Below, one piece after another: positions 1 through 58,654 of a DNA stretch of 64,000 nt (within the stretch, counting starts at the first letter, position 1; each line of letters begins with the position of its first letter). The notes under the pieces were generated by a model. The model was not told where the DNA came from, searched no databases, and saw only the letters and a program-made list of their open reading frames with translations. The stretch is from the NCBI RefSeq assembly GCF_038397775.1, contig NZ_CP151650.1:1116001-1180000 (forward strand), in the 5' to 3' direction. The position numbers and the translations under genes were made by a program. The DNA is from Pseudomonas sp. RC10. GTDB taxonomy: Bacteria > Pseudomonadota > Gammaproteobacteria > Pseudomonadales > Pseudomonadaceae.

Positions 1-34
1 TCTGTTCCGGCGATTGATCGGCGGGTACGGACAT
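1..34 (-). CDS. 5' end of a leftward gene behind light-regulator boxes (partial)
   Basis: Only the first 11 codons lie in the window (MSVPADQSPEQ). The ATG at 34-32 has a GAGG Shine-Dalgarno about 7 nt upstream, and the gene runs off the left edge. The identity cannot be read from 11 residues. Two perfect TGTACA-N12-TGTACA boxes lie 24-97 nt upstream. In related Pseudomonas the genes next to the flavoprotein/TIGR02450 pair are a LitR-type MerR regulator and the photolyase phrB, so a light-regulated regulator or photolyase-linked gene is the best guess. That guess is inference from context. Confidence 0.55.
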   Translation of the reverse strand, partial: MSVPADQSPEQ

Positions 35-57: not shown

Positions 58-131
58 TGTACAGACTGACAGCGCTGTACAACTTCTGTTCATCATAGGT
101 TTGAGGTTGTACAAGTCAAATGATTTGTACA
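58..131 (-). promoter_or_regulatory. Two tandem LitR/PplR-type boxes (TGTACA-N12-TGTACA)
   Basis: TGTACA occurs at 58-63, 76-81, 108-113 and 126-131. The spacing within each pair is exactly 12 nt (64-75 and 114-125). This matches the direct repeat T(G/A)TACA-N12-TGTACA reported for the class II LitR protein PplR1 of P. putida. Both boxes sit upstream of the leftward gene starting at 34. Because TGTACA is palindromic the boxes read the same on both strands; orientation is assigned from the neighbouring gene. Confidence 0.8.
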
Positions 132-144
132 GGTATTGCCGACT

Positions 145-231
145 TGTAGGAGTGAGCTTGATCGCGATGCGTTATTTCAGGCGCTGCGATGCTGACTATG
201 TCGACGCCTCGCGAGCAAGCTCACTCCTACA
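145..231. repeat. REP inverted pair, GGAGTGAGCTTGCTCGCGA family
   Basis: The arms at 145-167 and 209-231 are near-perfect inverted repeats with a core reading GTAGGAGTGAGCTTG, followed by a TCGCGA. The same family recurs at 21951-22041. It lies between the light boxes and the end of the TIGR02450 gene. Confidence 0.85.
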
Positions 232-250
232 GAGAGGGAATGCTGCAAGG

Positions 251-1488
<1,238 letters not shown>

Positions 1489-1496
1489 TCAAAACC

Positions 1497-1520
1497 TGTA
1501 CAATGCTGTTTTTCGGTATA
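1497..1520 (-). promoter_or_regulatory. Near-consensus LitR/PplR box upstream of the flavoprotein operon
   Basis: On the minus strand this reads TATACC, 12 nt, TGTACA. Compared with T(G/A)TACA-N12-TGTACA it has one mismatch, in the last base of the distal half-site. The proximal TGTACA is at 1497-1502. It is the only such element in the roughly 300-nt gap 1450-1750, and nothing else is recognised there. Confidence 0.6.
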
Positions 1521-54819: not shown

Positions 54820-55530
54820 TTACTTGACGTGCCGTCCGCCGTTTACGGTCAATGTGGTGCCGGTGACGTACGGGTTATCCAGCAGATAGCGCAGGCTCTG
54901 GTAGATCACTTCAGGGCCCGGCTCGATGCCCAGCGCCGATTTGGCCAGCGTGCGTGCGCGGTACGCCGCGTCGTCGTCGGGTTGAAACATCAGCATGGCC
55001 GGAGCGATGCCGTTGACCTTTATAGAGGGGGCATAGCGGGCAGCGAACGACAACGTCAGGTTGTCCATGCCTGCCTTGCTCGCGCAGTAGGCAATGTGCT
55101 TGCTGCTGCCCTTGCGCGTGACGTCGTCTCCGATGTGAACGATGTCAGCGATCTCCGAGCGCTGTAGCAACTCGGCGCAATGCAAGTTGATCAGGTAGGG
55201 GGCGAGCATGTGCACGTTGAACATGCGCATGAACACATCGCCTTCATCGCCCTCGGTTTCTGCCAGCCACTCGGAGGCGTTGTGGATGATCGCGCGCAAG
55301 CGTGGGGTGTGTTCTTTCAATTGCGCGATGAAGGCCATCACGCTGTCCTGCGACGAAAAATCCGCCTGAATCGCGAGGGCGCCCAGTGCCTCCAGTCGCT
55401 CGACGCCAGGGCGTTCGGTGCGATAACTGATAATCACCGGCTGACCTTCGCCCAGCAGCCGTTCGGCGCAGTGCAGGCCGATGCGCTGGCTGGCGCCAGT
55501 GATCAGGACAGGGGCGGGGGAGGAGGCCAT
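54820..55530 (-). CDS. folM: Dihydromonapterin reductase (SDR family)
   Basis: The 236-residue short-chain dehydrogenase has ITGASQRIGLHCAERLL (10-26) as its cofactor loop, IIHNASEW for the NNAG region, and YCASKAG (Tyr-x3-Lys) at about 147-153. The ASQRIG form and the neighbouring folE and folX identify FolM, which reduces dihydromonapterin to tetrahydromonapterin with NADPH. It is first in the operon, 21 nt before folE. Confidence 0.9.
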   Translation of the reverse strand: MASSPAPVLITGASQRIGLHCAERLLGEGQPVIISYRTERPGVERLEALGALAIQADFSSQDSVMAFIAQLKEHTPRLRAIIHNASEWLAETEGDEGDVFMRMFNVHMLAPYLINLHCAELLQRSEIADIVHIGDDVTRKGSSKHIAYCASKAGMDNLTLSFAARYAPSIKVNGIAPAMLMFQPDDDAAYRARTLAKSALGIEPGPEVIYQSLRYLLDNPYVTGTTLTVNGGRHVK

Positions 55531-56497: not shown

Positions 56498-57436
56498 ATG
56501 ACTCAGTTGCGCAGTGCGTCATCTGAAAACGATGAGGAGCTGTTGCCCATTCGCGAGGTGTCGCGCCTGACCGGTGTCAACTCGGTCACGCTTCGCGCAT
56601 GGGAACGCCGTCATGGCTTGATCACACCCATCCGTACCGACGGCGGACATCGGCTTTATACCCACGCGGATGTGGCGACGGTTCGGAGCATTCTCATGTG
56701 GACCGAACGCGGAGTGGCTATCAGTAAGGTTGGAAAAATCCTTGCCGATACCCGCGATCTGAATGCCAAGGCGCGAGGGCCGCTGAGTGTCGTCGACAGC
56801 GCGGGGAAAGAGGCGTGGCAAGGGCGGCTGCGTCAGGCTACCGAAAATTTCGACGAACGCTGGCTGGATCAGATCTACGATCAGGTCCTTTTCGCCTACC
56901 CCGTTTCGGTGGTCTTCGAAGACATCCTGATGCCGGTCTGGTACGACCTCGTCGCTCGTCATGACGCGTTTGGCCCCCTCAGCGAATGGCTGTTCTTCGA
57001 CCACTTCCTGCGAGGGCACGCACTTCAGCGGCTCACTTCAGCGCGAGCAGACGCCGATTATCGGGTTCTGGTGGTCGCCATGCCCGGTGGATGCAGGGAG
57101 CTGGAACTGTGGGTTGCCGCTTTGCTGATGACCTCTGAGCGCACATCGATCAGTGTGCTGGCGCCGGGGCAGCCGCTGGAAGAGCTCGGGCTTGTTTGCG
57201 GCAAGATCAAACCTGACGCGCTGGTGTTGTTCTCTGATCAACTGCCCTCGACCGACTTCAACAGAAAGCTGGAAAGGCTCGCGCTGGGGCTTGCCTGCCC
57301 GCTGCTGCTGGCGGGTAAAACCGCTGACATGGCACAGGCCAGTTTGCAGGGTTCGATCATCGGGTGTCTGAGTAGTGACGCAGGCGTGATGCAACAACGC
57401 TTGCAGCAGTTTCTGGCGGGACGTCTCGATACTTGA
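56498..57436 (+). CDS. LitR/CarH-like MerR family regulator (class II, no cobalamin ligand)
   Basis: The 312-residue regulator has an N-terminal MerR winged HTH (IREVSRLTGVNSVTLRAWERRHGLITPIRTDGGHRLY, 18-54), a helical region resembling the B12-binding four-helix bundle (105-180) and a Rossmann-like C-terminal domain. Where cobalamin-binding LitR/CarH proteins have an E/D-x-H-x-x-G motif, this one reads MPGGCREL (195-202) without His. That is typical of class II LitR (PplR type), which work with LOV proteins. The ATG at 56498 is preferred to a TTG at 56441, which would place the TGTACA site inside the gene. Confidence 0.82.
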   Translation: MTQLRSASSENDEELLPIREVSRLTGVNSVTLRAWERRHGLITPIRTDGGHRLYTHADVATVRSILMWTERGVAISKVGKILADTRDLNAKARGPLSVVDSAGKEAWQGRLRQATENFDERWLDQIYDQVLFAYPVSVVFEDILMPVWYDLVARHDAFGPLSEWLFFDHFLRGHALQRLTSARADADYRVLVVAMPGGCRELELWVAALLMTSERTSISVLAPGQPLEELGLVCGKIKPDALVLFSDQLPSTDFNRKLERLALGLACPLLLAGKTADMAQASLQGSIIGCLSSDAGVMQQRLQQFLAGRLDT

Positions 57437-58207: not shown

Positions 58208-58654
58208 TTACCGCTTTAACGCCGCTATTTCCAAGCGAGCTTGCGCCAGTTCGGCCTCTAATTCGACAACTTTTTGTTGCGTCTGAACGTGGTCGGTCAC
58301 GTCCTTCTGTATGCCTATGTAATACATCAGTTTTTCAGCGTCGTTGTAGATTGGCGTGATCGACAGCTCGTTCCAGAACGCACTGCCGTCCTTGCGGTAA
58401 TTGCGCAAGATCTGGCGGCATGGATGCCCATTTTTCAGGGCTTCGCGGATGGCCCGGCGCGCGAATTGATCGCGCTCGTCGCCCTGCAACAGGCGGCAAT
58501 CCTGATAGAGCACCTCATCGGCGCTGAATCCGGTCAGCCGTTCGAACGCCTTGTTGGCATATATAAGGATGTTGTCGTCACCCTCATGCTCTGCGATCAC
58601 AATCCCGTCGATCGAGGCGTCGATCGCCAGTTGCATCAGCTTTGCGTTGATCAC
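58208..58654 (-). CDS. Short LOV-domain blue-light photoreceptor
   Basis: The protein is 148 residues from a GTG start (58654-58652) with GGAGG 6 nt upstream, which decides it over the ATG at 58726. It consists of one LOV core and a C-terminal helix. The flavin adduct motif YQDCRLLQGDERDQ has the photoactive cysteine at residue 53, the same number as in P. putida PpSB1-LOV. NYRKDGSAFWNELSITPIYN and YYIGIQKDVTDHV complete the domain; a coiled-coil tail (VVELEAELAQARLEIAALKR) has no effector. It probably acts by binding a partner such as a LitR protein. Confidence 0.9.
   Translation of the reverse strand: MINAKLMQLAIDASIDGIVIAEHEGDDNILIYANKAFERLTGFSADEVLYQDCRLLQGDERDQFARRAIREALKNGHPCRQILRNYRKDGSAFWNELSITPIYNDAEKLMYYIGIQKDVTDHVQTQQKVVELEAELAQARLEIAALKR

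Follow-up and report, generated by a model that had tools for sequence, protein, structure and literature searches.

Locus and predicted promoter

The paired-box locus lies at the left edge of the window, by which we mean the whole 64,000-nucleotide stretch of Pseudomonas sp. RC10 DNA that was analysed, positions 1116001-1180000 of contig C1 of genome G000. Four TGTACA hexamers form two TGTACA-N12-TGTACA pairs: Box 2 at 58..81 (hexamers at 58-63 and 76-81) and Box 1 at 108..131 (hexamers at 108-113 and 126-131). A sequence-only reading of this DNA had described the same four hexamers and their pairing, which we confirm. Both boxes precede a minus-strand ATG at 34-32, the start of a gene whose 5' end (1..34, minus strand) runs leftward out of the window. 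TGTACA-N12-TGTACA is its own reverse complement, so matches on the two strands are not independent, and each box is counted once though it is matched on both. Just upstream of the boxes is a REP-like inverted repeat (144..235) that recurs across the genome; a search gave 75 genome matches, 74 of them to about positions 136-240 of the query, and an inverted repeat may be counted twice, once per strand. The repeat separates the boxes from a minus-strand gene for a Trp-rich protein of family TIGR02450 (251..553, the longest open reading frame, whose true start is uncertain).

A sigma-70-like promoter, TTGACT-N16-TATGAT, is predicted at 119-92 on the minus strand from the sequence of its hexamers only. 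The -35 hexamer (TTGACT, 114..119, minus strand) lies within the spacer of Box 1, and the -10 hexamer (TATGAT, 92..97, minus strand) follows at 16 nucleotides. Transcription probably starts at about position 85, which would place Box 2 between the predicted start site and the ATG. Promoter P6650 of P. mendocina, as described in passages of PMC9758184, the source of all P. mendocina statements here, has the same hexamers and spacing, with Site 1 overlapping the -35 and Site 2 between the transcription start and the ATG. Box 1 and Box 2 are the respective equivalents of these sites. P6650 carries two TGTACA-N12-TGTACA sites that were footprinted with the class II LitR PmlR2, and on the sense strand the footprint runs from +32 to -45 (PMC9758184). 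Projected onto the present promoter, it would cover about 54-130 if the start site is at 85, and the boxes span 58-131. The sequence-only reading suggested cooperative or very tight control; given the site positions in P. mendocina, each box might alone block RNA polymerase.

Genes downstream of the boxes

The boxes are followed on the minus strand by rudS, litR1, a photolyase gene (phrB), and genes for a SnoaL protein, a short-chain dehydrogenase (SDR), an FAD oxidoreductase, a DUF1365 protein, a UfaM-like protein and a DUF2878 protein. These nine genes probably form one transcript. The first encodes a 326-residue TudS-DUF1722 protein (L024:9054-10034; PF04463 and PF08349), an architecture that passages of PMC11417400 equate with RudS, a tRNA 4-thiouridine (s4U) desulfidase. 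All seven RudS_KT residues compared (Cys17, Cys49, Cys114, Glu51, Arg60, Ser111 and Ser113) have their equivalents here, each shifted by 5 positions, and on this sequence evidence the gene leaving the window is identified as RudS, the s4U desulfidase. Among the best 80 of 393 relatives, the closest named locus is that of Pseudomonas sp. SLFW, whose RudS is 99% identical. LitR1 is a 309-residue MerR protein with MerR_1 and B12-binding_2 domains, and the photolyase scores above the NF007955 cut-off. The UfaM-like gene is assigned by its CMAS family and its position, and the family match does not separate UfaM from Cfa. The run thus carries litR, phrB and a ufaM-like gene downstream of the boxes, as expected of a LitR-controlled light operon.

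The P. mendocina light operon likewise has nine genes, PME6650 to PME6610, which include pmlR1, phrB, an SDR gene (PME6630), an FAD oxidoreductase gene (PME6625), ufaM and hypothetical genes; phrB and ufaM are induced about 25-33-fold by light (PMC9758184). The hypothetical genes, PME6650 included, are matched by position, and the two operons are likened on their named genes, their number of genes and the promoter. In P. putida, passages of PMC11417400 and PMC11014904 place rudS (PP_0741), pplR1 (PP_0740) and phrB (PP_0739) side by side, which supports the same gene order. The KT2440 regulon of PplR1 to PplR3 resembles the present system in its box consensus as well as in these neighbours.

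LitR and LOV regulators

A second LitR-type MerR regulator, LitR2, is encoded at 56498..57436 on the plus strand (312 residues from the start used) and is 39% identical to LitR1. The LitR complement of the genome consists of these two and a weak match (29%) elsewhere. LitR1 resembles class I CarH/LitR proteins, which are B12-dependent, in its MerR helix-turn-helix and B12-binding_2 domain, and its closest solved structures are those of CarH. In contrast to class I proteins, it has no Pfam match to the cobalamin-binding domain. LitR2 matches MerR only, with neither B12-binding_2 nor the cobalamin-binding domain at E 1e-3. The make-up of a class II LitR (a MerR helix-turn-helix and a four-helix domain without the cobalamin-binding domain) is therefore found in the genome, whereas the class I combination of B12-binding_2 with the cobalamin-binding domain is not. 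Passages of PMC11417400 call class II LitRs adenosyl-B12-dependent, whereas those of PMC9758184 state that they are not. On domain content, our scan sides with B12-independence.

A short LOV protein is encoded at 58208..58654 on the minus strand (148 residues from a GTG chosen by homology). Its motif, YQDCRLLQ, includes the adduct-forming cysteine, Cys53, and has Leu where we take Phe to be usual. Among solved structures, its best matches mostly carry the deposited name "sensory box" protein. A motif search for LOV genes within the window found this one. A plant-type LOV motif has no match genome-wide, but the pattern is too strict to match even the YQDCRLLQ of the window protein, so the miss does not amount to an absence. 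The genome also has no match to PF04244, the family to which we assume CryB belongs; 3 of 14 control genomes do match it.

Near these genes is folM (54820..55530, minus strand), which encodes dihydromonapterin reductase (NF005066; 361.3 bits against a cut-off of 249). The LitR2-LOV-folM region resembles the pmlR2-PmSB-LOV-folM region of P. mendocina, which also has its second LitR and its short LOV protein outside the operon. Here litR2 and the LOV gene lie 56-58 kb from the boxes on the same stretch, and the LOV motif differs from that of P. mendocina in reading CRLLQ. The folM and litR2 promoters have no box at up to two mismatches, and the best consensus match in each has three. KT2440 has three PplRs, two short LOV proteins and cryB (PMC9758184, in part), in contrast to the two LitRs, the one LOV protein seen and the lack of a PF04244 match here.

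Frequency and conservation of the boxes

The lone hexamer TGTACA is more frequent in the window than expected (23 occurrences against 4.98). Single hexamers therefore mean little, and the argument must rest on pairing. At up to two mismatches, TRTACA-N12-TGTACA has 9 strand matches in the window against a shuffle mean of 2.04. Genome-wide, TGTACA pairs 2-31 nucleotides apart occur at 13 places: 4 at a spacing of 12, and 9 spread over the 29 other spacings, one of these 9 being the gap that separates the two focal boxes. Outside the rudS locus N12 exceeds the other spacings by little, with 2 places compared with about 0.3 for each of them. The promoter boxes match the published T(G/A)TACA-N12-TGTACA consensus, as the sequence-only reading had claimed, and likewise the T(G/A)TACA-N12-TGTA(C/T)A form of the class II LitR/short-LOV light operator. 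Exact TRTACA-N12-TGTAYA has 5 sites in the 6.71 Mb genome and the reversed pattern none, so the box is rare and does not occur at random frequency. At one mismatch, TGTACA-N12-TGTACA is found at 21 places and the reversed pattern at 9, which indicates that near-matches are mostly noise.

Conservation of the promoter was followed in the best 80 of 393 rudS relatives from one scan, a set that for this reason leans toward near relatives. Upstream of where the rudS match begins, all 80 loci carry at least one exact consensus box, and 54 carry two. The paired exact boxes of these 54 loci are 50 bp apart in 43, 51 bp in 9 and 49 bp in 2. Among the 26 loci with one exact box, a second box appears at one mismatch in 16 and is lacking at that level in 10. 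An ungapped alignment anchored on the -35 comprises 74 rows (73 loci and the window; 7 of the 80 loci could not be anchored). The -35 is present in these rows by construction, and TATGAT is found in 69 of them. Most positions in the Box 2 halves carry 1.2-1.8 bits. By comparison, 8 of the 12 positions in the spacer of Box 2 hold 0.06-0.24 bits, and the 45 bp farthest upstream average 0.18 bits. The spacer of Box 1 is more constrained than that of Box 2, which is explained by the -35 inside it. We take the boxes to be a real operator, and the sequences of these 80 relatives, two exact boxes in 54 of them, suggest that its geometry is fixed.

In an even draw of 59 genomes of the genus, at least one perfect box occurs in 54, whereas the reversed pattern occurs in 2. 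Among the matches listed, 60 box regions in other genomes comprise 25 at rudS, 7 at a separate SnoaL-SDR-FAD oxidoreductase operon and 28 at neither. Two exact boxes are present in 4 of the 7 regions at the separate operon (L146, L182, L189 and L195), and ufaM lies further off in 2 of the 28 regions at neither operon. An open-reading-frame heuristic applied to 26 of the 28 places 20 boxes inside a reading frame, some perhaps through over-long starts. Because many boxes lie at neither operon or inside reading frames, a single box is weak evidence, and the perfect box was rejected as a general regulon finder.

Several boxes elsewhere are recorded as observations. In another Pseudomonas, two perfect boxes 85 bp apart (L145:2501-2524 and 2586-2609) are at neither rudS nor the SnoaL operon. 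A perfect box in genome G044 (L168:2501-2524) lies between response-regulator-like and large sensor-kinase-like reading frames, both named by eye. In the present genome, a perfect box at 4901613-4901636 (L026:5614-5637) is about 140 bp before a gene for a PAS-PAS methyl-accepting chemotaxis protein, and a consensus box of the TATACA form at 917284-917307 (L027:5785-5808) lies between a DUF892 gene and a manganese-catalase-like gene, whose product scores below the NCBIfam cut-off.

A variant box upstream of the FAD oxidoreductase gene

The variant box TGTACA-N12-GGTATA (1497..1520), which does not appear in the sequence-only reading, is located at -71 of a second FAD-dependent oxidoreductase gene (463..1449, minus strand; PF01593) and is the only copy in this genome. 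Variant halves occur at -70 to -73 in 78 of 78 testable loci when up to two mismatches are allowed, testable loci being those in which both flanking genes are found (L076 and L080 of the 80 are excluded). The exact variant box is present once in 78 of the 80 loci. A conserved block extends from the box into the oxidoreductase gene, so conservation is not confined to the box. The rows of the block alignment were chosen by the exact variant pattern, which makes the halves invariant there by construction; the claim that they are conserved rests on the search at up to two mismatches and on the exact-variant count over the 80 loci. In 59 genomes of the genus, at least one variant box is found in 45, with 52 matches against 5 for the reversed pattern, although not all are at the FAD oxidoreductase gene. 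The same variant occurs 95 bp before the light-inducible folM of P. mendocina (PMC9758184, in part). We think that the variant box is a weaker LitR site.

A box upstream of kaiC-kaiB

A perfect box at 3060884-3060907 (L025:5885-5908; contig C1 of G000) precedes kaiC-kaiB and ends 70 bp before kaiC. These genes encode a double-domain KaiC (PF06745) and KaiB (PF07689), and a gene for a hybrid histidine kinase diverges from them. A second kinase-like reading frame, judged by eye, lies behind kaiC-kaiB. Close KaiC homologues (E up to 1e-150) are found in 6 of 398 genomes of the genus, this one included, and the box is present in 2 of the 6. In a separate draw of relatives, 2 of 194 genomes have a close KaiC, and they are the same two. 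The other genome with the box, G068, has a KaiC 93% identical and matches to 6 of the 7 neighbouring genes tried. Its box halves are identical at 12 of 12 positions, compared with 7 of 12 in the spacer, 84 of 126 in the upstream flank and 58 of 70 in the downstream flank. The remaining four genomes, with KaiC at 70-75%, have no exact box, and the best match within 500 bp upstream has 4-5 mismatches. As the two genomes that have it are related and chance would give about 0.3 pairs per spacing, the kaiC box is only suggestive. Perhaps, in this Pseudomonas and one close relative, a kaiC-kaiB operon with histidine kinases on its flanks has come under the class II LitR/LOV switch as well; we hold this reading tentatively and consider it somewhat less probable than its negation. 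Among the literature matches listed, no title or abstract opening links KaiC with LitR in Pseudomonas, and a review that describes daily growth rings in P. putida makes no Kai link in the passages available (PMC6627678).

Proposed regulation and alternatives

We consider it highly probable, chiefly by analogy with P. mendocina, that the two boxes act as operator for a sigma-70-like promoter from which an operon for the repair of light damage, rudS through the DUF2878 gene, is transcribed leftward, repressed by LitR and released by the LOV protein in blue light. In P. mendocina, surface plasmon resonance and run-off transcription showed that PmlR2 is a dark repressor that loses DNA on meeting the blue-light-excited short LOV protein (PMC9758184). 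In the dark, a class II LitR (LitR1, LitR2 or both) would occupy both boxes, covering the -35 from one and the region just downstream of the transcription start from the other, so that RNA polymerase would be shut out. Blue light would lead the short LOV protein to form a Cys53-FMN adduct, bind LitR and remove it from the DNA. The operon would then yield photolyase, s4U-tRNA desulfidase, the UfaM-like enzyme and more LitR1, the last giving negative feedback. The boxes, promoter hexamers, gene order, conservation and presence of both LitRs and the LOV protein were obtained here, and DNA binding, repression and anti-repression by LOV are carried over from P. mendocina. From that parallel we infer that the same switch works in this strain, light induction included, through whichever LitR acts.

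It is conceivable, though rather unlikely, that the two boxes serve different regulators, LitR1 on one and LitR2 on the other. The genome has two LitRs and the Box 1 spacer is the more constrained, a difference that the -35 nevertheless explains. However, the half-sites of the two boxes are identical, and in P. mendocina the single protein PmlR2 protects the whole two-site region (PMC9758184). A considerably less probable alternative is that LitR1 regulates its own operon through the boxes in response to something other than light, such as oxidative or redox stress, with light incidental. The position of litR1 inside the gene run would suit such a circuit, as would the rise of PP_0738-PP_0742 in a P. 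putida co-culture despite equal illumination (PMC11014904, in part). In contrast, the photolyase, the s4U desulfidase and the short LOV protein within the window point to light, and the corresponding genes in P. mendocina and P. putida are under light control according to the passages cited above. Chance clustering of TGTACA, or binding by another palindrome-recognizing protein, is very improbable despite the abundance of the hexamer in the window and the 9 reversed-pattern places at one mismatch, given the box in every one of the 80 rudS loci and the footprints published for a promoter built in the same way (PMC9758184); chance clustering itself is ruled out by that conservation and the spacing control.

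The preferred reading, a LitR-repressed and LOV-released light operator, supports the light control that the sequence-only reading had proposed for the gene leaving the window. This gene heads a rudS-litR-phrB-ufaM run like the P. mendocina light operon, and the sequence to the left identifies it as rudS, tied to light by its operon rather than unrelated to it. The original observation is real and its light interpretation is right in kind, but such control is already in the literature for a promoter with the same elements.

Implications

The present analysis adds the identity of the gene, the geometry of the boxes across 80 relatives, the regulators within the window, the variant box and the kaiC lead. 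The light switch itself is already published, and the variant and kaiC boxes are the new leads. An operator, two likely repressors and a likely photoreceptor are found in or beside one 64 kb stretch of one strain. The conserved GGTATA half-site, present here and before folM in P. mendocina, suggests that the published consensus should be broader. If the kaiC box is functional, blue light would control the abundance of Kai clock homologues in a bacterium that does not photosynthesize, and the box offers a cheap test of whether light enters the Kai system in a heterotroph.
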